Assembly (NCBI RefSeq): GCF_947241125.1
Contig: NZ_OX365700.1
Location: 2,760,001 to 2,824,000, forward strand
From: Nitrospira tepida
Lineage (GTDB): Bacteria; Nitrospirota; Nitrospiria; Nitrospirales; Nitrospiraceae
Direction of reading: 5' to 3'
DNA: 64,000 nucleotides
Positions within the stretch are counted from its first letter, which is position 1, and every line of letters begins with the position of its first letter. A program made the translations under genes and the position numbers. The notes beneath the pieces are model-generated. The model was not told the origin of the DNA and did not search any database. It saw only the letters and a list, made by a program, of their open reading frames with translations. Shown here piece after piece: positions 9,157 through 37,154 of this stretch.

Positions 9157-10477
<1,321 letters not shown>

Positions 10478-21906: not shown

Positions 21907-21914
21907 TGACAAAG

Positions 21915-21952: not shown

Positions 21953-22667
21953 TTGTCATTCCTGGCGAAACACACCATTGCCTGTTCATCCCGCGTTGGT
22001 TCCTCATCCTGCTCTTCTGCCCATTTCGTTGGTCTTCCTAACACCGTAATAACACCTGACAGAGAGCACGGTTTCAGGCTCCACGGGAAGGCTCCATGAG
22101 TCCTGGTGGTCATGCCGGGTAGGAACATGCCGGATAGGGGTCATTCCCCAAAGCGACTCTGCAACCCTCGTGCAACCAGATTGCTTCACGCTGAGCCACC
22201 CCGCTGACTCACGCTGCTCAGGCCCCCCTCAGGGGGTGCACCCTTGGGGCAGGTGCCGGGGGTGGGGGTGGTGGTCCATGTGCCAGGGCTGACAGTGCTC
22301 AGGGAAAAGGCCCCGGAAATTTTAGCGGGTGGCAAAAGGTAGGTGGAAAGGGGGCTGATTTGCCATAAAAAAGGATTTTGGAAGGATTTTGGGGCAGTTT
22401 AACGAGAAAGCTGTAGATTTCATTAGCTTACGTAGTCTTTAGTATGTGCAATGTCCGCGTGGACTCGGCGGTGACTCGGCGGGAAACCTCCGGTGGATAG
22501 ACCCTGCCTGGATTTCCGTCCGGCCTCGGGTGCATAGGGATCGGGACGGAAATTACCTGGAGAACTTGTGTCGAAGCTGAGTGAAGGGGAACCCTATCGG
22601 CCCGGCAATGACACGGGTGTCGCTGTTGTCGTAGAATACAGCCGTCCAGCCAAGCGCGGGGTGCACG

Positions 22668-22916
22668 ATGAGAATTCTACTTCCTGCCCTGCCCCTTCTT
22701 CTCTTGCTTTCAGGATGCGCCACAGTTGACGGAGAGCAGGTAGCCTCGGAATCGGTTGTGGCAGATGAGGCTACATGGAATCCATGCGCGGGGCATGCCG
22801 ACGAGAAAGTCATGGGGCCTGTTGAGGACATTCGACGGGCTGTGGCTGCTGGGGACCAAGCTGGCATTCAAAAGGCTATGAGAAACTTGTTGGCCTCCTT
22901 AGTGAAACTGGCATGA
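22668..22916 (+). CDS. Small putative lipoprotein of element A
   Basis: An 82-residue protein with a lipoprotein signal (RILLPALPLLLLLSGCATVDG), then an acidic mature part with one Cys (WNPCAGHADEK). I recognise no domain. The stop overlaps the ATG of the next gene (ATGA), indicating a two-gene unit. It may be cargo of the element. Confidence 0.65.
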   Translation: MRILLPALPLLLLLSGCATVDGEQVASESVVADEATWNPCAGHADEKVMGPVEDIRRAVAAGDQAGIQKAMRNLLASLVKLA

Positions 22917-23617
22917 CATGGGGACAGCGATTTGCGGATAACTATTTTAGGACTGGCATACAAGCTCGTCAGCGAGCGTATGCGTCTAAACTGGCCGCTG
23001 ATGTGGTCATGAACGAGATGCGGATGCCACGTGTCGTTGATGCGGTACAGCACGGTTTCCCCATTGAGTGGCTCATCCCAGGTGAGCAGACCCAGGCACT
23101 TTATGGGCACTTGATTCCTGCTGAGCCTCTCCAGTTTACCGCCGAAGGCGAGCCAGTGACATCGGTGAGACTTACCCCAACGCCAGCAGCGCCAGGGCAG
23201 AAACCGGCTGGAGTGGCCCTATGTCCACACGCTCGGTTGACTCCGTTTCAGACGAAAGTGTGGACAGGCGAACCGGAGGCCCAAGGGATCAAATCGAGCC
23301 AGCGAGACGAAACATCGGACTTTTCCCAGACTCGGAATGACCAGCAGCAATATTCAGTGTTTCAGCCACCTCAACAACTCATCCCAACACCAGGCGGCAG
23401 GGCGTTGCTCGGACCATACACACCCAACGCGTACGGCCCAGGAATGAATGCCGACGCCACGGGTAGACCATTTATATGGCAGCCAGATCCGGGTTTCGGT
23501 CCACCAGACCACTTTAGCACAGTGAAACCCGATGCCTACGGCCTTGGGGTTGGTATGGACCAATATGGACGACCTGTGAGGCCAGCTTGTCCACCAGGAT
23601 GGGCAGGACCTTGTTAG
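22913..23617 (+). CDS. Hypothetical proline-rich protein of element A
   Basis: A 234-residue protein, coupled to the upstream lipoprotein gene by an ATGA overlap. The N-terminal 80 residues look folded (QRFADNYFRTGIQARQRAYASKLAADVVMNEMRMPRVVD). The C-terminal half is low in hydrophobics and rich in Pro, Gly, Tyr and Gln, with repeated GP-x-YG and DxxGRP-type phrases (NAYGPGMNADATGRP, DAYGLGVGMDQYGRP). This suggests an extended or structural region. Function unknown. Confidence 0.6.
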   Translation: MTWGQRFADNYFRTGIQARQRAYASKLAADVVMNEMRMPRVVDAVQHGFPIEWLIPGEQTQALYGHLIPAEPLQFTAEGEPVTSVRLTPTPAAPGQKPAGVALCPHARLTPFQTKVWTGEPEAQGIKSSQRDETSDFSQTRNDQQQYSVFQPPQQLIPTPGGRALLGPYTPNAYGPGMNADATGRPFIWQPDPGFGPPDHFSTVKPDAYGLGVGMDQYGRPVRPACPPGWAGPC

Positions 23618-23653
23618 TCCCTATTCGGTAAGAAACCAAGCTAGCTTGAAGAT

Positions 23654-24280
23654 TCAATAGGCATCCGCGTTCATCGGACCACGCACACACCAGACATGTT
23701 GGGTGTCGGTTTTCCCTCCCCAGCCCACGTTGCCACCTGCGAAGTCCACGAGCCATGCGAGCGTAGAATTCTCGGCAACGGTAGTCGCCGACCAATAAGG
23801 GAATGACTGGACCCCTGTAAAGGTGCTCGTTGGCACAAAAGGTGATGGTAGCCCGGCGTCTTGGAGGCTCTTCAATTCGATTGCCGAGGGTAGCCGCCAC
23901 CCAACCGTGCTGCCAACGCTCTTATTAACACAATCGCGGATCGCTTCGACCCAAGAGCGGGTGATGGCGACAGGCTGCTTCTCCCAAACCAATCCAGTGT
24001 TGTTGTCTCTTACCGCTACTACTCCCCCAAAGTTTGCTAAGACGGTAAACCGCGAAGCACTCGGGAAATTCTTGTCCCAGTTCTGAGTGACTCCCTGAAG
24101 GTTCAGGCCGTCTATCTTGGATTCGAGCACGTTGAGTTTGTCCAAAATCTGTTGCTCGGTAGTGGTATTCTGCGCATTGACAGATGCCGATCCACCATCA
24201 CCACCACCGCACCCGAGCAAGAAACAAAGTGGGATGCTCAGAACAACCAATCGCAGGGCATGAAGTAGGAAGATGTTCAT
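23654..24280 (-). CDS. DUF1566 (Lcl C-terminal) lipoprotein
   Basis: A 208-residue protein starting at ATG 24280 behind GAGGAGGCC. A signal peptide with lipobox (IPLCFLLGCGGGD) is followed by a short coiled-coil (EQQILDKLNVLESKIDGLN) and a DUF1566 domain (VRDNNTGLVWEKQ, WRLPSAIELKSL, FPYWSATTVAENSTLAWLVDFAGGNV, VWCVRG). DUF1566 proteins are often exported or attached to surfaces; their function is poorly known. It probably counts as cargo. Confidence 0.8.
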   Translation of the reverse strand: MNIFLLHALRLVVLSIPLCFLLGCGGGDGGSASVNAQNTTTEQQILDKLNVLESKIDGLNLQGVTQNWDKNFPSASRFTVLANFGGVVAVRDNNTGLVWEKQPVAITRSWVEAIRDCVNKSVGSTVGWRLPSAIELKSLQDAGLPSPFVPTSTFTGVQSFPYWSATTVAENSTLAWLVDFAGGNVGWGGKTDTQHVWCVRGPMNADAY

Positions 24281-24455
24281 GGTGGCCTCCTCCCTCAACG
24301 GTAAAACCCCTGACCCAATTCCGGCCCCCGATGTGGCGCTATTCTAGGAACCCGCAAGAAGGTATGACAAGAACGGAAAGTGAGAAATGGTGGTATTTTG
24401 CCAGAATCAGCAGGCGGTTGCTGGAAGCTACAGATGTCTCTATTTAGCGAGAGGT

Positions 24456-24475
24456 CCCCGCCCTGACAGGCGGGG
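24456..24475. repeat. GC-rich hairpin CCCCGCC-N6-GGCGGGG
   Basis: A perfect 7-bp stem, extendable by flanking GAG/CTC. It resembles the end hairpins of IS200/IS605-type elements, but no tnpA or tnpB gene is present. A terminator for a lost gene is the alternative. Confidence 0.45.
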
Positions 24476-24687
24476 TCTCCGTTGTTTCATGCATCGCATG
24501 AGCCGCTTCGCGGCTCCCGGCTCTCACCCCCATCCTTCCTGATGGGGAACTCCCGCTAGATTAGACAAAATTAACGTCCTGACCCGGTTGTTTTTAGGCC
24601 CACAAAGGCGTTAGATAAATACCCTTCTTACAAAGCCCCTGCGGCGATTGAGCAGTAGTCCTACTATACAGGTGTTAACAGCATGCT

Positions 24688-24713
24688 CCCGCCCGCCCTT
24701 AAGGGCGGGCGGG
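24688..24713. repeat. Perfect 26-bp palindrome
   Basis: The left half is CCCGCCCGCCCTT and the right half is its exact complement, with no spacer. Such a structure could extrude as a cruciform or be a protein site or transposon-end hairpin. It lies in the gene-free part of element A. Confidence 0.75.
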
Positions 24714-25333
24714 CATAGCAGGTAGATGCTCTTCCTCTCCGACAATGGGGGTCTAGGGGTGGGGGGCCGTCCGCATTGGTGGCCACGGCAGCGATAAATG
24801 GGTCACCCATCTACCGCGAACGCAGGCGATTCTCCAACCCGTCGGCGAGAAAAAAAAGTGGGGGAGGGGTCGTTAAAAAACACGGCCAAAAACCGTTTAT
24901 TCCATTGGAAGAGTAAACGAAATAGCGCCAGCCTGGCAAACCCAGGATTTGCTTTCAAGACATCAGCCGGAGAGGATTTGCAACACGCGAATAAGTGAAC
25001 CATGGAAAAGGAAAAATTTTTTCCAATTGGCCGTTGCGCTCTTGACAATGGGCATGGCCCATGATTAGCTGGAATCACGATGGCAATAAAACACCTACGT
25101 GTCATTTTGCCGGTTTGACAGTCGGAAAGAAGTCTGAGGCGCGGTTGAGCGCTGAATGCAATATGGGTGTGGGGAATGCTCGCGTAGGCTTTGTGTGTCC
25201 TGAGTGCCGCTAAACGTACTCTGTCTACCTACTCACTAGGTAGCAGCTACCTCTCCACAGTATCAGTCCTCGTCCTCCCTATATACATACTCCCTATATA
25301 TCTATAGCTCCATAGCAGTGCATTCGTTACTTC

Positions 25334-25372
25334 GAGGGCCTCTCCCCACCTAGGGAGGAGGCCCTCTTTGTT
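25334..25372 (+). terminator. Terminator-like hairpin
   Basis: GAGGGCCTC (25334-25342) pairs with GAGGCCCTC (25358-25366), extended inward by TCCC/GGGA, and is followed by TTTGTT. It lies 65 bases before the 63-residue gene at 25437, so it would insulate the replication-type genes from upstream reading. Confidence 0.55.
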
Positions 25373-25436
25373 ATAGGCGTCCCTTTTTTTTTGTGTAGGG
25401 ACGGTCAACTTCACTCATTAACCATAGGGAGGATGT

Positions 25437-25628
25437 ATGCACATAACAGGAATCCATAGGGCGAGTAGTAACACGGTCTATTTCTATGCCCTCTGTATAC
25501 AGGACTTCACCCATATAGGGATAGGTCTAGCCAGGTATAGGAGAGACAGTACGAACAGATGGCGATGGGATTACACAGTGACCACACTATTGAACAATAA
25601 GCAAGGAGATCGAACATGCCGATTCTAA
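25437..25628 (+). CDS. Small hypothetical protein upstream of the RepA-like ATPase
   Basis: A 63-residue frame with a good ribosome site (AGGGAGG before ATG 25437). Its 3' end overlaps the start of the ATPase gene by 13 bases, as expected for a leader cistron. The composition is rich in Tyr and Arg (HIGIGLARYRRDSTNRWRW). No domain recognised. It could serve mainly to couple translation. Confidence 0.5.
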   Translation: MHITGIHRASSNTVYFYALCIQDFTHIGIGLARYRRDSTNRWRWDYTVTTLLNNKQGDRTCRF

Positions 25629-26656
25629 GTGCAGTGACAATAGGAGCAAGTCTGCTAGACGTTCAAACGATCATTGACGGTGAGCTACCAGCGGTAGATT
25701 GGGTGGTTGATCGGCTCATAGCGAAGGGTGACCGAGTACTGGTCTATGGTGAGCCTGGGTCACTGAAGTCATGGTTGATGCTCGACCTGGGCTTACATAT
25801 CGCTGCTGGGACTCCCTGGCTGGGACATTTCGAGATTCCAGAAAGGAAGAGGGTTCTCTACATAGACGAGGAAATGAGCCCACGCACATTAATTCGACGA
25901 GTAAAGAGGCTGATCGAAGGGTCAGACCTAGAGACGGACTCCTTGCCCTTCAAGGCACTGACCCTTTGTGGGGTGAGGTTCACCGATGAGAGTGTGGGGA
26001 CAACCCTCTTAGCTGGGCTCGCTACTCACGGGTTTAGCCCGGAGGTAGTGATCATTGAGACCATGAGAAGGGTTCTACATGGGAGTGAGAACAACGCCGA
26101 TGAAGTAGGAGCCTTCTGGAGATGCGTTGATTTGCTCAGGAAAGAAGGGAGGAGTCTAATTATCACCCACCACATGAAAAAGCCTTCAATGCATGGTGCC
26201 AATGAGTCCGTTTATAGAGCTAGCGGTAGCACTGATGTGTTGGGAGGGTCAGACTCAGCCTTTGCAGTAGAAAAACTACAAGCCAATAAGGTCTGTGTGA
26301 CATGCGTTAGAGCTCGCAATACACCTGAGGCATCACCGTTTTATGTTTCCCTACATGACACAGGGCCGGAAACACCGGCTTCAATGCGATTTGAGGGCCA
26401 AGGCGGTGCTCTAGTAGTGCCACAGAGCCGGGTTGAGGAGGTGGCCAACTGGATAGAGGAGTATCTGAGGGATCAGCAAGATCAGCAGGCGACGACTGCA
26501 CAGATCCGGCAGAATCTAGACACGGCACATCGTGTATCAAGCGATAGATGCGAGAAAGCCCTTAGGAGGCTTAGAGAGACTGGCAGAGTTACCCAGCCGG
26601 TGCACGGAGCCTACCGTATAGCGACTCAACAGGAGGTTGCCAGTGTCACAAACTGA
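25616..26656 (+). CDS. RepA-like RecA-fold ATPase (AAA_25)
   Basis: A 346-residue hexameric-helicase-type ATPase. Walker A is YGEPGSLKSWLMLDLG, Walker B region VLYIDEEMS and VVIIETMRR, and sensor IITHHMKK. The C-terminal 70 residues form a winged-helix-like part (TTAQIRQNLDTAHRVSSDRCEKALRRLRETGRV). RepA-type helicases of this sort drive replication of plasmids and integrative elements. ATG 25616 follows AAGGAG. It is the only replication-type gene in element A. Confidence 0.8.
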   Translation: MPILSAVTIGASLLDVQTIIDGELPAVDWVVDRLIAKGDRVLVYGEPGSLKSWLMLDLGLHIAAGTPWLGHFEIPERKRVLYIDEEMSPRTLIRRVKRLIEGSDLETDSLPFKALTLCGVRFTDESVGTTLLAGLATHGFSPEVVIIETMRRVLHGSENNADEVGAFWRCVDLLRKEGRSLIITHHMKKPSMHGANESVYRASGSTDVLGGSDSAFAVEKLQANKVCVTCVRARNTPEASPFYVSLHDTGPETPASMRFEGQGGALVVPQSRVEEVANWIEEYLRDQQDQQATTAQIRQNLDTAHRVSSDRCEKALRRLRETGRVTQPVHGAYRIATQQEVASVTN

Positions 26657-26977
26657 TCCGCCAAACCGCCTTACTTATATAAGTCGGCGGTGGCGGCGGT
26701 CTTTTGTGGACCGCCGGGCCAAAGACCACCGAGGCGGCGAGACTGGAAATACACGGGAGAACACTGTCCACGTGAACGGGGGCCAATTCCGAGCACGAGC
26801 GTAGCCTGAAGCGGAGCGAGTGCGAGGCTCTTGTTTCCTAAATACGAGGGTACTAACGAATCTAAACAATAGAGACTAGGACAGGCTAATAGCTTCCCTA
26901 GGTTAACCTACAGACCCCTGGGTTTCTCACGGGAATCGTGAGCTAGCCCTGGGGTTTTTTATTTCTGGAGGTATTTT
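26657..26977. other. Intergenic region with inverted repeats
   Basis: Contains GGCGG/CCGCC-rich inverted repeats just after the ATPase gene (26660-26740), a GAGCACGAGCGTAGCCTGAAG-like string near 26790 and a terminator (26914-26961). No gene seen. Confidence 0.45.
26914..26961 (+). terminator. Rho-independent terminator
   Basis: ACCCCTGGG (26914-26922) pairs with CCCTGGGGT (26947-26955) with one internal mismatch. An inner stem CTCACG/CGTGAG extends the hairpin, and a run of T follows (26955-26960). It ends the ATPase transcript. Confidence 0.75.
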
Positions 26978-27166
26978 ATGGAGCGTCTAACGCCTATTAA
27001 GGCCATAAGAGCCAAGTGCATGGACTGTACATGCCATCAACCCAAGGAAATCCGTGAGTGCCGTATTATCACCTGTCCGTTATGGCCCTACCGGATGGGT
27101 AAACGACCAAATCAGATACCCCAAACAAACCAGGAGGCAAAAGGTATTGAGCTATGCAGCATTTAA
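26978..27166 (+). CDS. Small Cys-rich phage-type protein
   Basis: A 62-residue protein with GGAGG before ATG 26978. The pattern KAIRAKCMDCTCHQPKEIRECRIITCPLWPYRMGKRPN is a small family common in phages and satellites, with four to five Cys arranged like a zinc site. Its role is unknown. It overlaps the excisionase gene by 13 bases. Confidence 0.75.
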   Translation: MERLTPIKAIRAKCMDCTCHQPKEIRECRIITCPLWPYRMGKRPNQIPQTNQEAKGIELCSI

Positions 27167-27348
27167 TCAACATAAAAGAGGCGGCTCAATACACGGGCCT
27201 GTCACCCCATACCCTCTACACGATGGTCAGTCAGCGGCGGATACCATTCGTGAAGGTGGGCCGGTTGGTCAAGTTCGATCTTGACCTGTTGGACAAATGG
27301 ATCAAACAGCATACCGTGATGCCGATGCCCAACAAATTGCAAACTTGA
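27154..27348 (+). CDS. Excisionase-like helix-turn-helix protein
   Basis: A 64-residue MerR-type/HTH_17 protein (LINIKEAAQYTGLSPHTLYTMVSQRRIPFVKVGRLVKFDLDLLDKWI). This is the usual form of excisionases that set recombination direction. The start overlaps the preceding gene. It belongs functionally with the integrase at 27869. Confidence 0.85.
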   Translation: MQHLINIKEAAQYTGLSPHTLYTMVSQRRIPFVKVGRLVKFDLDLLDKWIKQHTVMPMPNKLQT

Positions 27349-27352
27349 CGTG

Positions 27353-27372
27353 TGTACCCACTTATGGGTACA
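27353..27372. promoter_or_regulatory. Putative operator of the XRE regulator
   Basis: A perfect inverted repeat TGTACCC-N6-GGGTACA lies 14 bases before the GTG start of the XRE gene. Size and position fit an autoregulatory operator. Confidence 0.6.
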
Positions 27373-27385
27373 GTAGACTATCGTC

Positions 27386-27823
27386 GTGTTACGGCTCAGA
27401 GAGATACGACAGAGACAAGACGTAAGCCTTCGCCGTCTCAGTCTGGAGACGGGAATTGCCCTTTCCACACTACAGAGAGTGGAGCTAGGTGCCTTTGATC
27501 CGAGGCTCTCTACGCTCCGTGAGTTGGCGAAGGCCCTGAACGTATCGATCGCTGATCTGATAGGTGAAAGAGGCAGGCCATTTCCCAATTCAACAATCAC
27601 AAGGAAGGGGGCAAGTATGGCTCAGAGGTACAGCGTCCAGCGAAAGGATAAGGCAGTTAGCAATGCGGTCAGCGCCTTTGAGAAATGGCGAAGACAATAC
27701 GTTGTAAAAGGTCTTGGACCATTTGTCTGGAACTATGAATATGACCAGGTAGACCAAGCAACTAAGCTACTAAAGTTTCTTTTGACCAACCTCAAGGGGG
27801 CCGATTCAAGATCATCGGAGTAA
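27386..27823 (+). CDS. XRE-family transcriptional regulator
   Basis: A 145-residue protein starting at GTG 27386. The N-terminal helix-turn-helix is clear (LREIRQRQDVSLRRLSLETGIALSTLQRVELGAFDPRLSTLRELAKALNVSIADLIGE). The C-terminal 70 residues are basic and aromatic (KWRRQYVVKGLGPFVWNYEYD) without a known domain. Probably the element A maintenance repressor. Confidence 0.85.
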   Translation: MLRLREIRQRQDVSLRRLSLETGIALSTLQRVELGAFDPRLSTLRELAKALNVSIADLIGERGRPFPNSTITRKGASMAQRYSVQRKDKAVSNAVSAFEKWRRQYVVKGLGPFVWNYEYDQVDQATKLLKFLLTNLKGADSRSSE

Positions 27824-27868
27824 GGTTTCAGTAAACCGCATTAACTCAGCGAAAGGAGGGGTAGTCCA

Positions 27869-29122
27869 ATGGGACTGACCAAACGGAAGGACAGTTACTA
27901 TGTCGAGTTCCCTGTACTGGATGATGGCAAGGTGCTCAAGCTAGCGCCACCGGGCACAGGCAAGTTGAAACGGTGGAAGGTGGGAACGCTGAACCGGCGC
28001 TATGCTAAGGATCAAGAGGCCATCATTAAGACACGCCTCCTGTCCGGCCAGATACCTAGTCCGGCGGTGGCCCGTGCCGAAGCCATGACGTTTCGGCAGT
28101 GGGCGGAGATTTATTTGAACCTTGAGGAAGTGAAGAAGCTGAAGAGTTACCCCCTTCGCAAGTTGTATGTGGGGAATCTGGTGAAGTTCTTCAGGGACAA
28201 ACCGTTGGCCGCGATCACCCCGGAGGAGGTTGCTGCGTATCGGGCGCAACGAGTCCAGTACAGGCGGATTCAATGTCCTGAATGCAAGAAACGAAAAGAG
28301 AGGCGGTTTGTCGGGCAGGAGGTCTGCCCTGCGTGTGGTTGGAAGCGCGAGGATGCCCCGCGTCCGGTCTCCTTGCAGACGATCAACCATGACCATACGG
28401 CGTTAACTCACATGCTGAATGTGGCGCGCAGTCCGCGTTTCAAGGTGATCCTGGACAATCCGGCGAGCCACGTGAAGAAGCCAGACCCGAAGAACGAGCG
28501 GGACAGGATCGCCAGCACGGACGAATGGCTTCGGTTGAAGGAAGCGGCAGCGCCGCATCTGCGCCGAGTCCTCACGGTGGCCTATGCGGTCGGTCCTCGA
28601 AAGGGAGAACTGCTGAAGCTCGAATGGTCGGACGTAGACATGAAACGGAGGGAGGTTACACTTCGAGACACCAAGAATGGGGAAAGCCGCATGGTTCCCA
28701 TGACAGAGGAGGTGTACGAAGTGTTTAAGGAGTGCTGGAAGGAACGCCGACTCGACACGCAACGAGTTTTCCTGTATAAAGAGAGGCTGATTTCTCGACT
28801 CAATACGGCGTTCAATGCGGCTTGCCGTCGAGCGGGAATCGTCGGGCTTCGGATTCACGATTTTCGCCACACGGCGAGCACGAACCTCAGGCGGGCAGGG
28901 GTAGACACGGCCACGGCTATGAAGATCGTCGGCCACAAGTCCGAGCGGATGCATCGGCGGTACAACACCATTCAGCCGGAAGACCTGCACCGAGCCGTTT
29001 CAAAGCTTGCCGTGTTCCAGGCTAACACTGTAATAACACCTGAGCCTGTGGCGGTAGGAGCCGAAATTGTAAGTGCGCGACAAACCGAAGCGAGCGGGCG
29101 TAGCTCAGTGGTAGAGTCCTAG
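27869..29122 (+). CDS. Tyrosine integrase of element A, with inserted zinc ribbon
   Basis: A 417-residue tyrosine recombinase. Catalytic residues: Arg in VGPRKGELLKLEW, Lys in RDTKNGESR, HxxR in IHDFRHTAS, His in GHKSE and Tyr in RRYNTIQPED. A zinc-ribbon-like CPECKKRKERRFVGQEVCPAC interrupts the core-binding part near residues 135-155. The last residues (SGRSSVVES) are encoded by the 5' end of the tRNA-Gly gene. The TAG stop shares CTAG with the opposing integrase. It catalyses integration of element A at the anticodon arm. Confidence 0.95.
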   Translation: MGLTKRKDSYYVEFPVLDDGKVLKLAPPGTGKLKRWKVGTLNRRYAKDQEAIIKTRLLSGQIPSPAVARAEAMTFRQWAEIYLNLEEVKKLKSYPLRKLYVGNLVKFFRDKPLAAITPEEVAAYRAQRVQYRRIQCPECKKRKERRFVGQEVCPACGWKREDAPRPVSLQTINHDHTALTHMLNVARSPRFKVILDNPASHVKKPDPKNERDRIASTDEWLRLKEAAAPHLRRVLTVAYAVGPRKGELLKLEWSDVDMKRREVTLRDTKNGESRMVPMTEEVYEVFKECWKERRLDTQRVFLYKERLISRLNTAFNAACRRAGIVGLRIHDFRHTASTNLRRAGVDTATAMKIVGHKSERMHRRYNTIQPEDLHRAVSKLAVFQANTVITPEPVAVGAEIVSARQTEASGRSSVVES

Positions 29123-29168
29123 CTTCCCAAGCTAGTTGTCGTGGGTTCAAATCCCATCGCCCGCTCCA
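29094..29168 (+). tRNA. tRNA-Gly (anticodon CCC), CCA encoded
   Basis: A full cloverleaf: acceptor GCGGGCG/CGCCCGC, D-arm GCTCAGTGGTAGAGT, anticodon stem CTAGC/GCTAG with loop TTCCCAA (anticodon CCC), T-arm TGGGTTCAAATCCCA, discriminator T and genomic CCA. The 5' part lies inside the element A integrase gene, and the minus strand of the anticodon and T-arm region lies inside the element B integrase gene. It is the only intact copy in the window. Confidence 0.97.
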
Positions 29169-30390
29169 ATTTTTCAACCGGTTCCGTTACCCTCTCTTCA
29201 CTCTCTCTGACCTCCGTTCCGGTTTCAGTCACGGTTCCAGAAAGCAATCGATCTGCACTCGGTTGTGAGGGAGTCGGGGAGAACAATCCGAAGCGGCCAA
29301 CCGTTTCCACCGCGGCCTTGAGATGCGCTTGACTGAGATGGGCGTAGCGCTTCACCAGGGCCGTCGAGGAGTGGCGCAGCAAGGCCGCGATGGTGCCTTC
29401 ATTGTGGCCCGCCATCGCCAACCGGCTGGCGAAGGTATGCCGGAGATCGTGCCATCGCACATCGAGCAATCCCGCGTCCCGCACCGCCGGGCAGAAGATT
29501 CGCGAGTAGACGTTGCGTTGATCCATCGGGCGAGCGGGATTCTCTGACGGAAAGACCCAGGGAGAGGCGCGCTTGGGGTGAGCAATCGCCCGGGCCTCTG
29601 CGATGGCCTTCATGTTGGCGAGAATCTGCCGGGCTTCCTCCGGGAGATGCACGTACTGCACCCCGCCGGCTTTCGTTTCCGGTAACGTGAGCAAGCCCAG
29701 GTCAAGGTTCACATCCCGCCAGCGGAGCCGCATCTGTTCCCCAAGGCGAAGGCCGGTCAGAATCGCCAAGCGCGCCCAGGGCGCATGATCAGGCCCGAGC
29801 TTGTCGAGCAGTGTGGCTTCTTCCTCTGGGGTCAAGAACCGCATCCGGCTTGGCCGTATCTTCACCAGCGTCACCCGCTCAAACGGATTACGATCGATCC
29901 GCCCATCGCGCTTCGCTTTATTCAGCACATGCCGAAGAAACTTCATGTAATGCAACACGGTTTGCGGAGCCCTGGTCACGGGGGTCGCTTCGTGCTTTGG
30001 GTCGAGGTTTTCGGTCAACAGTTCCCGCTGTGCCGCTTCCAGGAGGGCAGGGGTGACGGCATTCACACGGAGACCCTGTAGCCGTGCCTTCCACCATTCC
30101 CCATAGTGCTTCTCGGCCCATTGATTCTTCACGGTCGAGGTCTCGACATGCGCCGTGATCAGATCTGTCATCAAGGGATAGCCGCCGTGCTGGTATCGCT
30201 CAGGAAAGAAGCGCCCGGCCTTTTGTTCCTGTTTCGCCTTCTCGTAGAAATCCCGCGCAGCCGTCTTCGTCGAGAAGCTTCCGAACCGCCGCTCTCGGCC
30301 ATCGTGGTAGAGCCGCACGTACCATATCGTCTTCCCGGCCGCGTCCTGCTTCGACAGCAAGCCCCGATCTTTTCGTCCTGCTCGTGCCAT
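29119..30390 (-). CDS. Tyrosine integrase of element B
   Basis: A 423-residue tyrosine recombinase. ATG 30390 follows AAAGGAGGAGCG. The N-terminal arm-binding domain (TIWYVRLYHDGRERRFGSFSTKTAARDFYEKAK) is followed by the catalytic domain: Arg in LTGLRLGEQMRLRW, Lys in ETKAGG, HxxR in WHDLRHTFAS, His in RHSST and Tyr in KRYAHLS. The C-terminal tail LERAMGFEPTTTSLGS is read from the tRNA-Gly minus strand. It inserts element B into the 3' side of the tRNA. Confidence 0.95.
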   Translation of the reverse strand: MARAGRKDRGLLSKQDAAGKTIWYVRLYHDGRERRFGSFSTKTAARDFYEKAKQEQKAGRFFPERYQHGGYPLMTDLITAHVETSTVKNQWAEKHYGEWWKARLQGLRVNAVTPALLEAAQRELLTENLDPKHEATPVTRAPQTVLHYMKFLRHVLNKAKRDGRIDRNPFERVTLVKIRPSRMRFLTPEEEATLLDKLGPDHAPWARLAILTGLRLGEQMRLRWRDVNLDLGLLTLPETKAGGVQYVHLPEEARQILANMKAIAEARAIAHPKRASPWVFPSENPARPMDQRNVYSRIFCPAVRDAGLLDVRWHDLRHTFASRLAMAGHNEGTIAALLRHSSTALVKRYAHLSQAHLKAAVETVGRFGLFSPTPSQPSADRLLSGTVTETGTEVRESEERVTEPVEKLERAMGFEPTTTSLGS

Positions 30391-30517
30391 CGCTCCTCCT
30401 TTCAGAGAGTTTTTCCCTGGTTCCGTGAAGGCGGAACGCCGTATTTCGCATATGAGCCACGATCTGGAGCAAGACCAGGGGGAAGGCCGGGCTTCCCCCT
30501 GATCGTGGGTCGTGGCC

Positions 30518-30757
30518 TCAGTCCTGACACGCCAGCGTCCCCAGGATCCGCGCCACCGCCTCCCGCTCTTTCGCCGTCGCGCGTTCAATCCGATACCCGC
30601 AGCCAACCCAGGACATCAGGTCCAAGGCGCCGCCATCGGGTAGGACCATGACGGGTTGGCCGTAACTGCTCGTACTATGCGTCGTGCTGAGGCGGACTGT
30701 GACCCTCTTGCGCGCTGGGGACTCTCCAAATGGATCGACTCGGTATGAGCATGTCAT
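30518..30757 (-). CDS. Small hypothetical protein of element B
   Basis: A 79-residue protein. ATG 30757 is preceded by AAGGAGGGGGAATC. The N-terminal half is basic with a strand-rich look (CSYRVDPFGESPARKRVTVRLST); the C-terminal half ends with a helix (IERATAKEREAVARILGTLACQD). No domain recognised. Same strand as the other satellite genes. Confidence 0.6.
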   Translation of the reverse strand: MTCSYRVDPFGESPARKRVTVRLSTTHSTSSYGQPVMVLPDGGALDLMSWVGCGYRIERATAKEREAVARILGTLACQD

Positions 30758-30773
30758 GATTCCCCCTCCTTGG

Positions 30774-31034
30774 TTACGGCCACCAGGCCGGCAGTGAGTA
30801 TTCAATCCCTCCGGTCTCTCGGTTCCGGTCCCGCGTCAGTGGGGCTTTCAACAGGCGAAGCGCCTGGAGGTAGCGATAGAATTCCCGATGCGGGATCCCT
30901 AAGACCTGCTCCACGTGCGCCCGGCTGCTCGGGCGCCGTTGGAGGAGCCAGATCAGTTCCAGCCCCTCCGCCAGGATGCGCTTCTTGATCTCAACCCCGT
31001 TCGGCAGTCTCGGGCGTGGCCGGCGCCGTCGCAT
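30774..31034 (-). CDS. Small winged-helix-like protein of element B
   Basis: An 86-residue protein with ATG 31034 behind GGAGGGAGCC. The N-terminus is Arg-rich (MRRRRPRPRLP), then two to three helices (EGLELIWLLQRRPSSRAHVEQVLGIPHREFYRYLQALRLL) that resemble a winged helix. A DNA-binding role is inferred from this pattern only. Confidence 0.6.
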   Translation of the reverse strand: MRRRRPRPRLPNGVEIKKRILAEGLELIWLLQRRPSSRAHVEQVLGIPHREFYRYLQALRLLKAPLTRDRNRETGGIEYSLPAWWP

Positions 31035-31055
31035 GGCTCCCTCCGTGGTGGCGGG

Positions 31056-31196
31056 CTAGGCGCCACGTTGGCTTTTGAAGTGCTGTTCCAGTAAGTGGCG
31101 AATCAGGCCCGCCGCCGTCGTGCCGCGTTTGCGCTCGGCGTCGAGCTTGGCCTTGAGGGTTTTCGGCAGTTGCACAACGAGGCGCGTCATTTTCAT
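31056..31196 (-). CDS. Ribbon-helix-helix protein (minus strand of the divergent pair)
   Basis: A 46-residue protein. ATG 31196 gives MKMTRLVVQLPKTLKAKLDAER, a complete ribbon-helix-helix strand and first helix, followed by GTTAAGLIRHLLEQHFK. It is divergent from another RHH gene at 31293, with a palindrome between them. Likely a repressor of one or both. Confidence 0.75.
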   Translation of the reverse strand: MKMTRLVVQLPKTLKAKLDAERKRGTTAAGLIRHLLEQHFKSQRGA

Positions 31197-31220
31197 GGCT
31201 AATCTCCTATCGTGATATTT

Positions 31221-31240
31221 ATGATATGTACGCATATCAT
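31221..31240. promoter_or_regulatory. Palindromic operator between two RHH genes
   Basis: ATGATATG-TACG-CATATCAT is a perfect inverted repeat in an AT-rich gap between divergent ribbon-helix-helix genes. A partial third GTGATAT half-site lies just upstream. RHH repressors commonly bind such tandem boxes. Confidence 0.65.
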
Positions 31241-31292
31241 ATGCTGTCAAGTGCTATTTACCCATCGCCGACACCGTGCTATCTTCGCCACC

Positions 31293-31484
31293 ATGCCAAA
31301 GAAAACAGATCAAGAAAAAGGCGGGTCCTGGATCTTCCGGGACATCCCGCGAGAGCTTATGAAGCGTGCCAAAATTGCCGCCGCAGTAGAGGGCAAGTCG
31401 ATCAAGGCCCTCATTTTGGAGGCCCTGGACGAACATCTGCAGGGGATGGAGAAGAAAGGGCTGTTGCCGAAAGGGAAGGGCTAA
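31293..31484 (+). CDS. Arc-like ribbon-helix-helix protein (plus strand)
   Basis: A 63-residue protein, the only plus-strand gene in element B. The motif GSWIFRDIPRELMKRAKIAAAVEGKSIKALILEALDEHLQ fits Arc/MetJ-type DNA-binding proteins. ATG 31293 has no strong ribosome site. It may control the satellite switch together with the opposing RHH gene. Confidence 0.75.
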   Translation: MPKKTDQEKGGSWIFRDIPRELMKRAKIAAAVEGKSIKALILEALDEHLQGMEKKGLLPKGKG

Positions 31485-31646
31485 TCGAGATTCTTCCGGT
31501 GTTTGACGATGGCCGCGAGGAGCCGGCGCCTGAACATCCGGGAAAAAGTGGGGGCTCTTGGCGCGGCGAGAGTGTCCCGCGGGCTCCGCGCCAAGTTTGT
31601 GCCGCCGTGGCCGCCCCCAAGCCGCCGGTGGAGGCCCGCGAGCCGC

Positions 31647-32885
31647 TTACGCCATCTGCAAGGCTTTGACCGCCCCGCCGCCGCCGTCCACCAGGTCGCC
31701 ATCCGCGCGGATGAACGCCAGGAAGCCCAGTTGCAAGTAATCGGCATACCGTTCTTCCAGCCGCAACACGCGCGGTTCTTTCACCAGCCGGACATAGTAC
31801 GCCGACAGATCACCGAACAGAATCGCCTTGTTCCCGGTGGCCAGGCTCGGCATGTTCGGATCAATGACGACCGGCTTGCCGAGGAGTGAATCCGGGCTGC
31901 CGGCGGCCAAGTCCCCATACAGCGGGCGGTTCTGTGAATCCTTCAGTTTCCGTAGCGCCCCGAAGGTGGTGTCATTCATGAGCCACTTGCCGTTCTGGCG
32001 ATACAGCGGATCGACGCTGTGCATGTGGTCCACCAGCTCATCATAGGTGACCGCCGTGGCGCTGGCGGCCGTCTTGCCCACCGTGGCCGCGGTGACAATC
32101 CCGCGCGGTTTGGAGCTGCCGTCCCCCGTCACCCAGTGCTTCGCCGTAATCCGCCCCAAGCGCTCCCCGAGCTTCTTCATGACGTAGGCCGCGAAGTCAA
32201 AGCCGGCATCGTCCATGAGTTGGATTGAGACGCGCACGATCTTCGAGGAATAGAGGAAGCTCTGCAACACGACTTGCGAGAGCACGACATCGCCTTCGTT
32301 GTGTTGCGTGTTCTCTGAGATGATCTCGCCCTCGACGGCCGTTTCATTATCCGCTGGGATGGGCAGGTCCGCGCCCGTCGCGGATGGCACGATCGTGCAG
32401 TTCGGCAACACCCCGCCGATCTGTTTCAGCGCTTCCACCAGGGGCGCCATCGCCGCGTCCGGCACGGCATACCCGCCTGCGCCGCCAGAGCCCACCCCTT
32501 GCGCCATGCGGATGTCGGGATCATGGCGCAGCCGCTTCGTCATGATCGCCCGCTCATCTGGATCGAGCCCGTTGATCCCGAATTTCAGGAAGTTCGAAAA
32601 GGCCCGGACCTCCGGTTCCCCCTCATCCTCCGACAGTCCCGGCCGTGAGGACAGCCCGCGTAGGATGCGATCCATCTTCGGATCGCGCCGGCCGGCATCG
32701 GTCAGCGCATCCCCGAGTTCCGCTTCTCGAATCTGCGCGGCCAGACGATCGACTTCCACCATAATCCCGTCAAAGCGCGCCTCGATCTGCTTGGTAAAGG
32801 GCTCGCGTTTGAGGAGCGCTTGGGCCTCGTCGAGCAAGCGCCCGCGCTGCTCCCGAAGTTGCTGTGCACGTGTGAAGGACGACAT
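31647..32885 (-). CDS. HK97-family major capsid protein
   Basis: A 412-residue capsid protein. ATG 32885 follows GGAGG. Residues 1-100 form the charged coiled-coil scaffold-like region (LREQRGRLLDEAQALLKRE). Then comes the HK97 fold (GGYAVPDAAMAPLVEALKQIGGVLPNC, SVDPLYRQNGKWLMNDTTFGALRKLKDSQNRPLY, LLGKPVVIDPNMPSLATGNKAILFGDLSAYYVRLV, DYLQLGFLAFIRADGDLVDGGGGAVKALQMA). No protease or portal gene accompanies it, unlike ordinary HK97 prophages. Confidence 0.93.
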   Translation of the reverse strand: MSSFTRAQQLREQRGRLLDEAQALLKREPFTKQIEARFDGIMVEVDRLAAQIREAELGDALTDAGRRDPKMDRILRGLSSRPGLSEDEGEPEVRAFSNFLKFGINGLDPDERAIMTKRLRHDPDIRMAQGVGSGGAGGYAVPDAAMAPLVEALKQIGGVLPNCTIVPSATGADLPIPADNETAVEGEIISENTQHNEGDVVLSQVVLQSFLYSSKIVRVSIQLMDDAGFDFAAYVMKKLGERLGRITAKHWVTGDGSSKPRGIVTAATVGKTAASATAVTYDELVDHMHSVDPLYRQNGKWLMNDTTFGALRKLKDSQNRPLYGDLAAGSPDSLLGKPVVIDPNMPSLATGNKAILFGDLSAYYVRLVKEPRVLRLEERYADYLQLGFLAFIRADGDLVDGGGGAVKALQMA

Positions 32886-32990
32886 AGCGAAACCTCCGTT
32901 GTTGAAAATCCCCGGAGGTTCGCCGTTCTGGCGGGTGGTCCGCCGCGGCGACATGCGGAGGCGGACAGCGTGCGGGGGTGAATGTGTCAT

Positions 32991-33167
32991 TTATAAGTTT
33001 ACAGTATCGTTCCTAGATGAATCAACCTTCTCGCGCGTTTCACGCGCCGCGCGTTCATCGCGCACCGCGGCTTCTATCTTTGCATCAATCCAGGTCTGAT
33101 AGATCGAGCAAATCCCTTTCAATTGCCGCAACAGCGCGCGATGGAATTGCACATCGAGACTATCCAC
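32991..33167 (-). CDS. Small protein between terminase and capsid genes
   Basis: A 58-residue helical protein starting at GTG 33167, overlapping the end of the small terminase gene. Sequence: SLDVQFHRALLRQLKGICSIYQTWIDAKIEAAVRDERAARETREK. No named family. The charged helix suggests a structural or accessory packaging role, but that is inference. Confidence 0.55.
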   Translation of the reverse strand: MDSLDVQFHRALLRQLKGICSIYQTWIDAKIEAAVRDERAARETREKVDSSRNDTVNL

Positions 33168-33651
33168 GGCGCGGCCTCTGCGGTTCGAAGAACTTTGCGA
33201 TGCCCTTCGGCTCGCTGTCGTTCGGAAGCGGCGACACGCGGGCATGCTGGGCCGGTGTGGCACCCAGTTCGGCCAAGGCCGCTTGATAGGCGCGGCGTTC
33301 TTGCTGCATGATCCGCACTTCCGGCCGCGGTCTCGTCATCCTCAGCCCATCGCGTTCCGTTTCATAGGTGGCGCCGTGCTCGGCAATCGCCCTCTCGGCC
33401 CTCTTGAACATCGAATATGCGGTCGCGGCAATAAGTAGAATGCCATAGTCCGCTTCGCACAACACCCCATGCTCTCCGCCAAGGAGCAAAACCAAGCGAT
33501 CCCATTCGGCGCTCGCGTCGGCATCGAGATCAGCCGGCTTCTGCGGAGTGCCGACCACGAAGGGAGAGGTTCGCGCGGAGGTCAGCGGGCGTTTGCCCGG
33601 GTTTCCACGTAGGATGCGAAGACGCTGCGGATTCGGCTTTCTGCCTCTCAT
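33160..33651 (-). CDS. Phage terminase small subunit, P27 family
   Basis: A 163-residue protein starting MRGRKPNPQRLRILRGNPGKRPL, the signature of P27-type TerS proteins, and continuing WDRLVLLLGGEHGVLCEADYGILLIAATAYSMFKRAERAI. ATG 33651 follows GGGAGGCCTT. TerS selects DNA for packaging. The satellite has no large terminase gene, so it would need a helper enzyme. Confidence 0.92.
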   Translation of the reverse strand: MRGRKPNPQRLRILRGNPGKRPLTSARTSPFVVGTPQKPADLDADASAEWDRLVLLLGGEHGVLCEADYGILLIAATAYSMFKRAERAIAEHGATYETERDGLRMTRPRPEVRIMQQERRAYQAALAELGATPAQHARVSPLPNDSEPKGIAKFFEPQRPRRG

Positions 33652-33752
33652 AAGGCCTCCCTAAAAAACAGTTGCGAATTTCGCGGGGAAATCCCGAATG
33701 GGGACCCCGCGGTCTATACGTAAAGGCCCCAGACTTTTCACCCGCCATCCCC

Positions 33753-34199
33753 TCATGCGGGCAGATGTCCGCGAATCTGCCGCGGATCGACCAGCAACGG
33801 AGCAGGCTGGCCAAACACTTCCACGGCCACGGCCAGGCGGTACCCGCCAAAGACTTCCTGCACAACACCGAGCAAGTCCCCGTTGAGACTTCGCATGATC
33901 ACAGTGTCTCCAGGCTGGTATTTCGCTCCCGCCGCCGGCTGGTATTCCTCTCTGATCAACTCCCCCGCTTCGCCGTCATCATCGTCCAGCAGGTCGCACG
34001 GCGGGAGCTGCGCCGGCTGTGCTGGCAGGCGCGAAGTCGGCTGTCGGCGCCGCCGGAGGTTGGCCAACCTGGCCAACTGGCGCGCGCGCAGGTCTGCAAC
34101 CATGGCCAGCAGGCGTTGCCGTTCCGCCGAATCTTCCGCATTGATCCACGCCCAGCGGAGTTCGGCCGCTTCACGGGCGAAATCCTCACTGCCCGGCAT
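33753..34199 (-). CDS. Hypothetical protein of element B
   Basis: A 148-residue protein with ATG 34199 behind GAGGAGGAAATGAC. The first half is helical and Arg-rich (ELRWAWINAEDSAERQRLLAMVADLRARQLARLANLRRRR). The second half is a likely SH3-like or small beta domain (AGAKYQPGDTVIMRSLNGDLLGVVQEVFGGYRLAVAVEVFG). No named family. Confidence 0.65.
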   Translation of the reverse strand: MPGSEDFAREAAELRWAWINAEDSAERQRLLAMVADLRARQLARLANLRRRRQPTSRLPAQPAQLPPCDLLDDDDGEAGELIREEYQPAAGAKYQPGDTVIMRSLNGDLLGVVQEVFGGYRLAVAVEVFGQPAPLLVDPRQIRGHLPA

Positions 34200-34200
34200 G

Positions 34201-34533
34201 TCATTTCCTCCTCGTGTGAGATGAGAGGCGATCAACTCCATTCTCCACGCGCTCCAGCGTCACACATTCACCAGACCGCGTGATGCGGTAGGTTTCGCCC
34301 TGTGCGTTCGCCAACTCTTTCAATGCCCGCCCAGAGTAGCGGACGCCTTCAATGATCCACGTATCTGTCCCCACCTGATAGCCGCGCGTGCTGTTCATCC
34401 ACCAGTAAAAGAAGTCGCAGGGGTACAAAATGGCACGGACCATCAGTAACCAGGGTGGCAGAATCGCCCCTTCAGTTTGCCTGGAGGTTGCCAAGCGCCA
34501 CAGTCTGGCACGCAACGATCGGGCCTCCGTCAT
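34201..34533 (-). CDS. Hypothetical protein of element B
   Basis: A 110-residue protein. The start at 34533 overlaps the stop of the upstream gene (ATGA). It contains an aromatic hydrophobic stretch (LLMVRAILYPCDFFYWWMNS), then a beta-rich part (WIIEGVRYSGRALKELANAQGETYRITRSGECVTLERV). Function unknown. Confidence 0.6.
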   Translation of the reverse strand: MTEARSLRARLWRLATSRQTEGAILPPWLLMVRAILYPCDFFYWWMNSTRGYQVGTDTWIIEGVRYSGRALKELANAQGETYRITRSGECVTLERVENGVDRLSSHTRRK

Positions 34534-34724
34534 CGTTCACACGCCGGTTGATAGGTCCGGCCAGCCGGCGCAGGCGGCTCGGCCTGGCGGCTCGCTTCGT
34601 TGAGCAGACTGGCGAGGTTCGCCGCAGCCACCCAGGTCAGGCGGATTTCGGAACCGCCCGAACCGGTCAACAGAACCTCGTGCCGCTCGTGGTCAACGCT
34701 CACCGTCAGGCATGCAGGCGTCAT
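34530..34724 (-). CDS. Small hypothetical protein of element B
   Basis: A 64-residue protein. ATG 34724 overlaps the previous stop (ATGA), fixing the start. MTPACLTVSVDHERHEVLLTGSGGSEIRLTWVAAANLASLLNEASRQAE looks like a small alpha/beta unit. Unknown function. Confidence 0.6.
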   Translation of the reverse strand: MTPACLTVSVDHERHEVLLTGSGGSEIRLTWVAAANLASLLNEASRQAEPPAPAGRTYQPACER

Positions 34725-35032
34725 CGGCCGCGCTCCGTCATCCATTCCGCCGGAATCTTCGCCAGCCGGTCGGTCGCGGGATGCCAAACCAGGACCGAGC
34801 CATCGGGGTAGGTCGCGAGGACTTCACCCTCACAGGTTCCGAAGAGCGGGCTGTCCCAGCGGATCGGATCGCCAGGCTGGGGCAATCCAACCGGGCGCAC
34901 CCGGTCCCCCAGCTTCGCCAGAATCCGGCGCGCCCGGTCCGGTTCGACCTCCACCGGTTGCCCGGGGATGAGCACGATTTCCCCGCCAGGCCAGCGGTAA
35001 CGGATCGGCTGTCCGACCGCCTCAAGTCTCAT
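34721..35032 (-). CDS. Hypothetical protein of element B
   Basis: A 103-residue beta-rich protein (GQPIRYRWPGGEIVLIPGQPVEVEPDRARRILAKLG, PLFGTCEGEVLATYPDGSVLVWHPATDRLAKIP). Its start lies inside the end of the primase gene (11-base overlap). Unknown function; probably part of the same transcript. Confidence 0.6.
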   Translation of the reverse strand: MRLEAVGQPIRYRWPGGEIVLIPGQPVEVEPDRARRILAKLGDRVRPVGLPQPGDPIRWDSPLFGTCEGEVLATYPDGSVLVWHPATDRLAKIPAEWMTERGR

Positions 35033-37067
35033 CGTCGATGATCTCCGCCCCTATCTCCCAAGATTCTTGTTCCAGAGGACCGTTTTCTTGTTCTCGCATG
35101 GAGGCGAAAAGCCCAAAATCGCGGGAACAAGAATCATTGACGATATTTCGCGCGCTTACGTTCGTTTTCTGATTCTTGTTTTCTTGTTCCCCTATATATG
35201 GGGGAACAACAGAACAAGAACTCCTTGACTGGGGTGAGCTTGTCGCGTCAGGGTTCTTGTTCCCAAGTTCCGGCCGGGATTCTTGTTCCCGGTGTTCACA
35301 GGATCGGGCATATTTGAACGGGTCCGCCTTGCCACCCCGGCCAGTCTTGACAACCTTTCCGGCTCCGACCAGCGCTCGAAGCGCTTTGACCTTGACCCCG
35401 CGTCGGCCTTCCATTTGGTCAAGGATGACCTTCTCTTCGACGGGTTCCTTGGTCATCGCCAGGTAGTCGAGGATCGCGTCACCCATTGCGGCTTGATCCG
35501 CCACATCCCGGCTTGGTCCGGCTGCTATGGTCCGCGCTGTTGGGTCCCACGCCAACGTGATTTCTTCTAGGTCTTCGCCGTAGCGTTGAACGCTGCTCAA
35601 CGTGCGGTACTTCTCCGTGCGCTTCAGGAGCAGTGCAGTGTCCACCGCTGCAAAGATTGCGGTTGACCCTAAGATACTGTCTCCGCCCTCTCGATCACCC
35701 TTCCCCAAGTGATGAACAGCCAACACACCAGCACCCGTCTCCCGCGCCAGCGTCCCGAGCGGTTCTAAGGCTATCGTCACAGCTGCGTAGTCATTTGCGT
35801 CTTTTACGCGCGTGAAGCGAAAGAGTGGGTCCACGATGATCAACACTGGCGCGTAGCGACCCGCGGCTTTTCGCAACAGAGGCAACCCATCAGCGGGGGA
35901 AGGCGCACAGAAAATGTAGATGCGATCGTCCACCGTCGCCCCCATTTCTCGAAAGTGGCGCCTCACCTCCGACCGTTTTTCTTCCAGCGCAAGGTACAGG
36001 ACAGGCCCGCGCGAAGTGGGGAAGCTCAGAAACGTATCTCCCCGCGTTACAGCTAACGCAAGGCAACGAGCCATGGTCGATTTCCCCGCTTTCGGCTTGC
36101 CAGCGAGGAGCGAAAGGCCGCCCACCGGCAGGCGAGCTTCCAGCACCCATGGGCGCGTGTCTTCCGGCTCATTGAGCAAGTCACCAAGAGACGTGAAGAG
36201 CATCGGTCCATCATCCATGCCCCACGGCCGCGCGCTCGCCAGCAACGTTTCGAGTCGCTCACTGAACGCGGGGTCCCGTCGATACTGCGCGACAAAATCC
36301 GCCGCATCGCCTTTCGCCGGAGCCTCCGGCCATTCGACGAAGCGAACGCTTCGGGCCACTCCGGCGAGACGTTCACCGATCCGCTGCATGTGCGCGCGTC
36401 CTGGTTCGTCGTGATCAGGCCACAGAATCGCATCTCTTCCGCGAAGCACGTCCAGCGAGGCAAGCGACGGAGCGCTGTTGGCTCCGGTCACCGTCCCCAG
36501 CGCTGGGACTCCCGCCCACCAGAGCGCTTCAGCTGCTTTCTCGCCCTCGACCACGATGCGATGGTTAGGGTCGGTCCATTCGACTTCTGAGCCATAGAGG
36601 GGGAGATCCGCCGTCTTCCGACCGTTCAAGCCCGGGGTGCCGTCCAGGCGCCGCCAGGTGAACGTTTTCTCCCCGTCGCGATCGATGCGTTCATGGATCG
36701 CGACGAACTCTCCGCTGCGGTCGCAGATCTCGTATGCTGTCACGGATGCACCCTCTCTGTTCGGTTTTCCGTTCGCGTGAGTCACGCCGGCAAGCTCTTC
36801 GATGCGCCGCCGCTGTTCTTTGAATGTCTGGAGGCCTCCCAGCAACCCGATCAACTCAAACACGTCGGCGCCCTTCTCGCCGAGACACTTCCGGGACCAA
36901 CAGAAGGCCCGGCCGTCCTTGATCGTGACAGATGGGTGCGCATCGCTATTGCGATGTCGTTCCGGAAACGGGCATCGCCAACGCCCCTGCGCATCAGGGG
37001 TACTACCATAGCGTCTGAGCAGATCTGCGACAGAAACAAGATTTTTCAGTTCAGCAACCGTCGTCAT
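35022..37067 (-). CDS. Satellite primase-helicase
   Basis: A 681-residue replication protein. Domains in order: CHC2-like zinc finger (CPFPERHRNSDAHPS...FCWSRKCLGEKG, about 32-65), Toprim (HRIVVEGEKAAEALWWAG, then WPDHDEPGR, about 170-225) and RecA-like helicase (LLAGKPKAGKSTMARCLAL; Walker B APVLIIVDPLFRF; LAVHHLGKG, about 330-480). The low-complexity C-terminal tail (residues about 590-670) is encoded by the iteron cluster. It resembles the primase-helicases of phage satellites. Confidence 0.88.
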   Translation of the reverse strand: MTTVAELKNLVSVADLLRRYGSTPDAQGRWRCPFPERHRNSDAHPSVTIKDGRAFCWSRKCLGEKGADVFELIGLLGGLQTFKEQRRRIEELAGVTHANGKPNREGASVTAYEICDRSGEFVAIHERIDRDGEKTFTWRRLDGTPGLNGRKTADLPLYGSEVEWTDPNHRIVVEGEKAAEALWWAGVPALGTVTGANSAPSLASLDVLRGRDAILWPDHDEPGRAHMQRIGERLAGVARSVRFVEWPEAPAKGDAADFVAQYRRDPAFSERLETLLASARPWGMDDGPMLFTSLGDLLNEPEDTRPWVLEARLPVGGLSLLAGKPKAGKSTMARCLALAVTRGDTFLSFPTSRGPVLYLALEEKRSEVRRHFREMGATVDDRIYIFCAPSPADGLPLLRKAAGRYAPVLIIVDPLFRFTRVKDANDYAAVTIALEPLGTLARETGAGVLAVHHLGKGDREGGDSILGSTAIFAAVDTALLLKRTEKYRTLSSVQRYGEDLEEITLAWDPTARTIAAGPSRDVADQAAMGDAILDYLAMTKEPVEEKVILDQMEGRRGVKVKALRALVGAGKVVKTGRGGKADPFKYARSCEHREQESRPELGNKNPDATSSPQSRSSCSVVPPYIGEQENKNQKTNVSARNIVNDSCSRDFGLFASMREQENGPLEQESWEIGAEIIDDET
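35064..35289. repeat. Iteron cluster TTCTTGTTCY, candidate replication origin
   Basis: Eight copies: forward at 35064, 35085, 35173 (variant ending TT), 35181, 35254 and 35280; reverse at 35124 and 35211. A palindrome GTTCCCC-TATATATG-GGGGAAC (35186-35207) with an AT-rich centre sits in the middle. The array lies inside the 3' coding part of the primase-helicase gene, whose product there is the repetitive EQEN/EQES tail. Confidence 0.75.
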
Positions 37068-37151: not shown

Positions 37152-37154
37152 GCG

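Follow-up and report, generated by a model that had tools for sequence, protein, structure and literature searches.

Integration into tRNA genes is mostly described as an affair of the tRNA 3′ half, with the tRNA kept under its own promoter. In the Islander collection, a 5′ fragment is recorded for 159/3919 islands, and tandem arrays are on record as well (PMC4383910). The locus described here resembles these islands in having an intact tRNA, a displaced 5′ fragment and an integrase between them. It differs in that a 5′-type element meets a 3′-type element on one tRNA, and no mixed case was noticed in the available part of PMC4383910. The pTN3-like archaeal integrases use the tRNA 5′ half, and the tRNA is stated to be expressed from the integrase promoter, which is termed seldom encountered in bacteria (PMC8371274). 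As with pTN3, the 5′-type elements examined here appear to carry and replace the tRNA 5′ half, and such halves are found at positions 9033, 21868 and 29094. However, pTN3 is of the suicidal SSV type, in which the integrase gene is split on integration (PMC8371274), whereas the + strand integrase gene of this locus (int+) remains whole. In Mx8, attP lies inside the int coding sequence and the 3′ end of int is altered on integration (PMC6070905). Finally, tRNA-dependent lysogeny likewise involves a tyrosine integrase, a tRNA attB and putative arm-type sites around the core. In that system the phage brings a separate tRNA gene and the tRNA is not rebuilt (PMC10865867), whereas here it would be rebuilt at the junction.

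A search of the open-licence literature with few search terms found no account of 5′-type and 3′-type elements on one tRNA. Precedents exist for the separate parts (5′-half islands, pTN3, Mx8), and the novelty lies in their combination on two sides, as a variant of a known theme. We analysed a 64,000-nucleotide stretch of the Nitrospira tepida genome (the window), in which a tRNA-Gly(CCC) gene appears, with a probability of about 0.9, to be a docking site used from both sides, by elements E1 and E2 upstream and element R downstream, candidate arm-type sites included. The features are listed in Table 1.

Table 1. Features of the tRNA-Gly(CCC) locus, in window coordinates.
Feature	Position	Strand	Evidence or remark
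Tyrosyl-tRNA-synthetase-like host gene, marks ancestral tRNA-Gly(CCC) locus	7296..8621	+	Pfam tRNA-synt_1b, E 1.6e-82
Displaced tRNA 5′ half (positions 1-30), putative resident half, outer end of E1	9033..9062	+
MITE with nested IS110-type element	9062..10415		CTAG on both sides, 9058-9061 and 10416-10419
E1 (decayed)	10420..21867	+	ORFs for a DrmD-like helicase and a split type III restriction enzyme; short integrase-like remnant
Candidate arm-type site, E1 left end	10562..10578	+	+138 bp from anticodon centre of split core
tRNA 5′ half (positions 1-40), putatively E1-borne and displaced by E2	21868..21907	+	100% identical to working copy
E2	21908..29093	+	AAA/primase-helicase-like ORF 25616-26656, HTH regulator 27386-27823, int+
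Candidate arm-type site, E2 left end	22039..22055	+	+138 bp from anticodon centre
int+ (417 aa tyrosine recombinase)	27869..29122	+	Pfam Phage_integrase, E 8.8e-30
Candidate arm-type site TAACACTGTAATAACAC, int+ coding end	29023..29039	+	104 bp from anticodon centre
tRNA-Gly(CCC), intact; 5′ half predicted from E2, 3′ half from R	29094..29168	+	ARAGORN, partial copies
CTAG, stop codon of int+ and int-; 5′ arm of anticodon stem	29119..29122
int- (tyrosine recombinase)	29119..30390 (listed ORF 29119..30606)	-	Pfam Phage_integrase, E 2.7e-23
R, satellite-like	29169..38487	-	int-, major capsid 31647-32990, small terminase 33160-33651, primase/helicase 35022-37067
Displaced tRNA 3′ half (positions 30-75), outer end of R	38488..38533	+

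Results and Discussion

Two integrase genes end within one tRNA gene

The tRNA-Gly(CCC) gene is the sole ARAGORN call in the window. Other tRNA-Gly genes seen in the genome have the anticodons TCC and GCC, and tRNAs identical to the working copy occur in two relatives, G002 and G020. The ORF listing and ARAGORN bear out what an earlier note on this DNA had read from the sequence, that int+ and the minus-strand integrase gene (int-) converge and are both closed by one CTAG within the tRNA. The C-terminal tails, SGRSSVVES for int+ and ERAMGFEPTTTSLGS for int-, are indeed the tRNA translated in both directions. The int+ frame enters the tRNA 5′ half by 29 nt, while the int- frame enters at the 3′ end and covers 50 nt. 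What that reading omitted is the cause, which would be the meeting of 5′-half and 3′-half element classes at one anticodon loop.

Both proteins match PF00589 in Pfam. An alignment of 14 sequences, int- not among them, showed that int+ residues R244, K269, H330, R333, H356 and Y365 are invariant, which we take to be the catalytic R-K-H-R-H-Y set of tyrosine recombinases. A CxxC...CxxC insert resembling a small zinc ribbon lies at about residues 138-163 of int+. It is also found in the nearest relatives L010 and L011 and is absent from the remaining 11 sequences. For int-, the listed TTG start at 30606 is probably too early and the true start is probably near 30390, because most matches to its relatives start at residues 66-72; residue 73 is a Met (at about 30390).

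Read from the 5′ side, 3/3 frames are closed within the tRNA, with first stops at positions 8, 19 and 27. From the 3′ side 2/3 frames are closed, one of them on the CTAG at 29119-29122, and the third has no stop. Assuming random entry frames, the chance that both ORFs end on this CTAG is about 1 in 9. The common stop therefore requires no special cause and is mostly a coincidence.

The C-terminal tails follow from the tRNA

Relatives of int+ were counted at 57 Nitrospirota loci with a tRNA, comprising the tree clade plus six C-terminal fragments absent from the tree after removal of duplicates, of rows that lack a tRNA and of those that fall outside the Nitrospirota clade. Only 12/57 integrases end at or inside the tRNA. 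The other 45/57 end before it, so tRNA-encoded tails are not a family trait. The tail SGRSSVVES is common to the Gly(CCC) members L009, L013 and L044, while other integrases use another frame of tRNA-Gly, giving the tails GAGNGI (L026) and GAGDGI (across the tRNA in L044). The earlier note had asked whether homologous integrases keep these tails. A special role for the tails is not supported by these counts and frames. The note's own counter-case, an integrase that usually stops before the tRNA, applies to most of the int+ family. The tail in this window is nevertheless a genuine reading frame rather than an artefact, as an identical tail is found in L013 and L044.

At the predicted circle junction the int+ tail is unchanged, whereas the int- tail would read SLGRATK in the circle and SLGS when integrated. 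An alteration of the int 3′ end by integration, as in Mx8 (PMC6070905), is thus predicted for int-, as a small counterpart, and none is predicted for int+. The Mx8 alteration affects integrase behaviour (PMC6070905), and together with the tail common to three Gly(CCC) members it might suggest that the tails function in the integrases and that the common stop is under selection. We regard this as very improbable. The letters of the tail are dictated by the tRNA, and integrases in other frames have other letters; tail function was rejected as the cause of the common stop, given that most clade relatives stop upstream and that a common stop is expected by chance about once in nine.

Displaced tRNA halves lie on both sides

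Searching the genome with its own tRNA sequence revealed three partial copies in the window. Two 5′ halves lie to the left of the intact tRNA and one 3′ half lies to the right, and they overlap only around the anticodon loop, where the crossover would have occurred. Compared with the working tRNA, the 5′ half at 9033 has two differences, at positions 3 and 22. The differences in the 3′ half at 38488 are at positions 49 and 63, which pair in the T stem, so the change is compensated; given these differences at paired positions, this 3′ half is no duplicate of the one carried by R. The tDNA-island signature of Islander, an intact tRNA with an end fragment on the matching side and an integrase between, was found for E2 (with int+) and for R (with int-). 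For E1 the integrase is represented by a remnant only.

The sequence is best read as integration from both sides. The 5′-type elements, E1 and then E2, would enter upstream of the tRNA, each bringing a 5′ half next to an int gene of the same direction, while the 3′-type element R would enter downstream, bringing a 3′ half next to an antisense int. Every integration by an active integrase would restore an intact tRNA and shift the resident half outward. The working tRNA would be the 5′ half of E2 joined to the 3′ half of R, since E1 and E2, in tandem upstream, end in a 5′ half and R starts with a 3′ half. Because both int genes lie directly against the core, their frames continue into the tRNA from either end, and by coincidence both close on the anticodon-stem CTAG.

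E1 and E2 resemble each other at their left ends (10416-10521 and 21893-21998, 72% over 106 bp), and the E1 integrase remnant near 21751-21797 resembles the int+ gene (47 bp, 74%). An alternative idea is that 9033 to 38533 is a single composite element with two integrases, with a 5′ half at one outer end and a 3′ half at the other as if they bounded one unit. Such a 29-kb element was rejected, and is highly improbable, in view of the tRNA half at 21868, the intact tRNA between the integrases, the alike left ends of E1 and E2, and the placement of int+ and int- in different clades. Even less credit can be given to an assembly or frameshift artefact at the tRNA. Assemblers can be misled by repeated tRNA pieces, but the genome is a single 4.73-Mb contig and similar layouts occur in other assemblies (L013, L044, G057).

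The type III restriction enzyme-like protein of E1 (17456-21667) is divided among three ORFs, each matching the next part of a single profile. In E2, a short ORF at about 27155-27349 looks by eye like an HTH excisionase. R is a small element with genes for a capsid, a small terminase, a primase and an integrase, the set of capsid-forming phage-inducible chromosomal islands. Three more of its ORFs had no PHROG match in a scan that covered part of the R ORFs. R, known here from part of its genes, recalls capsid-forming phage satellites. In a phage collection, all matches to int+ and int- (425 and 808 records) were below 60% identity.

The ancestral locus and the MITE insertion

The tyrosyl-tRNA-synthetase-like gene was matched in 32/37 genomes, own included. 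At 20/29 relatives' loci an intact tRNA-Gly(CCC) on the same strand starts 50-833 nt downstream of this gene. The remaining loci comprise one with the tRNA on the other strand, one with a tRNA-Ala and seven with none in the available stretch, which at one of them is just 59 nt. Two of these seven, G020 and G002, have an intact tRNA about 2.5 and 3.8 kb past the synthetase-like gene. In a third, G013, a 5′ half (1-39) lies about 70 nt after the synthetase-like gene, with the arm motif described below 135 bp past the anticodon centre, and it looks as if a 5′-type element entered the same site. The half can be linked to its integrase only by inference, because the corresponding int and tRNA are on a separate contig (L168).

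The earlier note also described a MITE that had hit a degenerate tRNA at exactly the same CTAG. The tRNA piece at 9033-9062 and the CTAG-flanked insertion are both real; the coincidence is explained by the preference of this MITE for YTAR targets. At least 40 near-full matches to the MITE end were found in the genome among the best 40 of 118 candidates scored. YTAR flanks both sides in 21/28 copies with both ends measured, one side in 5 and neither in 2, and CTAG is found on both sides in 11 of those 21; the query contained one CTAG and the left-side tally is possibly somewhat biased. The MITE contains an IS110-type transposase gene. The IS110-type copies at 9118-10311 and 38892-40085 are 99.7% identical over 1194 bp; the first is inside the MITE, and the second is near a similar MITE-like end, not far from the displaced 3′ half.

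The integrase family appears to use either tRNA half

With a threshold of E 1e-20 or better, int+ was matched in 25/61 genomes, own included. At least 80 further int+ loci came from named genomes, with at least 46 from Nitrospirota among the matches listed. The analysis covered 110 rows. A tRNA lies close to int in 90 of them and is co-directional with it in 49 (co rows) and antisense in 41 (anti rows). For int- and its relatives, the arrangement is antisense in all 13 rows in which a tRNA lies close by, int- itself and one repeat included. The co/anti label was mapped on a tree of 95 rows (quick IQ-TREE run, LG+G4), in which long outgroup branches are unreliable. It requires 7 changes, at least 6 of them forced by starred branches, versus a shuffled mean of 23.5. 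L072, an antisense Arg(CCT) member, has as its sister a group of 20 rows, 18 of them co-directional. The larger find, as far as sequence comparison can tell, is that one Nitrospirota clade of integrases docks on either tRNA half and that its candidate arm-type sites keep a near-constant spacing to the anticodon.

Only 8/33 distinct loci with at least 7 kb of upstream sequence showed a displaced half, as did 0/52 with less, and we counted this against the model. Longer stretches were examined for 11 loci and gave displaced halves at six, one partial (G032 Gly, positions 18-37), which was also counted against the model. None was found in the longer stretches of the other five (L168, L171, L178, L180 and L181). 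The 5′ halves end at positions 39-41 (L043, L067, L090, G057, G001, G013). Anticodon-loop 3′ halves start at 31-32 and reach 76 (L048, G005, G032 Thr), and the Leu/Phe members L074, L078, L080 and L081 have shorter 3′ pieces. In L166 (G032), a 28-bp tRNA-Gly(CCC) 3′ piece (positions 48-75) lies at 1157-1184, about 140 bp past the intact tRNA, and is a possible trace of another 3′-type event.

In 10/46 co rows with at least 800 bp downstream (44 rows once listed duplicates are removed), a convergent integrase ends no more than 70 nt from the tRNA 3′ end, as judged with a profile at E 1e-6 or better, which may miss distant integrases. The ten are L009, L017, L044, L045, L050, L051, L056, L063, L065 and L073. 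No convergent integrase was found near the tRNA in 38 anti rows. We take 10/46 as recurrence and claim no excess of convergent pairs. A second two-sided locus, G057 (L017), has a tRNA-Arg(CCT) with displaced halves about 11 kb upstream and about 12 kb downstream.

Candidate arm-type sites keep their distance from the anticodon

The motif TAACACnnnAATAACAC has three matches in the window, all exact although 1 mismatch was allowed, and 0 in 100 shuffles. At the 57 clade loci, the motif (up to 3 mismatches) was found in 28/40 co rows and 17/17 anti rows; since it was first spotted in the same loci, these match counts are descriptive. Its absence from 12/40 co rows at this threshold was counted against the model. 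The motif starts 104-106 bp from the anticodon centre in 27/28 co rows that have it. In anti rows it starts at 103-104 bp in 8/17 and at 109-121 bp in the other 9/17 (Leu, Phe), the latter again counted against the model. The distance from the motif to the end of the stop codon varies from 39 to 108 at clade loci. E1, E2, L043, L067, L048, G057 and G013 have a far-side copy at 135-138 bp from the anticodon centre, and in the Leu/Phe members it is at 99-110 bp. The motif is mostly absent outside the Nitrospirota clade, and L090, which is outside the clade and has a 5′ half, has no motif at the expected place.

The E1 and E2 integrases probably bind the motif as paired arm-type sites, a near site (104 bp) in the int coding end and a far site (+138 bp). 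One of the paired candidate sites, that at the end of int+, doubles as protein-coding sequence.

A block TAAGTnnTTGA lies about 45-60 bp before the anticodon centre, in a similar place in 5′-type and 3′-type members, and often contains the int stop codon. It was rejected as a promoter signal specific to the 5′ type because its place is identical in 3′-type members. A scan for consensus promoters in 28800-29200 found none.

Implications for tRNA genes and their elements

The anticodon stem-loop may be an orientation-neutral docking port, with the rebuilt tRNA also helping to silence its own integrase. We offer this joint reading as doubtful. As for docking, one integrase clade would have repeatedly exchanged the tRNA half that it carries while keeping the spacing from arm to anticodon, and islands could stack on both sides until the host tRNA is wholly element-borne. 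Switching off would apply to sub-clades with the int stop codon inside the mature tRNA, where an RNase P cut of a joint int-tRNA transcript would strip the stop and leave a non-stop int mRNA. It would be limited to the integrated state, the circle being without the 3′ half.

5′-type and 3′-type elements appear to be able to share one tRNA, and host tRNA transcription may depend on mobile DNA because the clade mostly uses the 5′ half. The near-constant spacing of the motif in both orientations would allow the choice of tRNA half by tyrosine integrases to be tested directly, and could serve as a DNA signature for detecting such elements.
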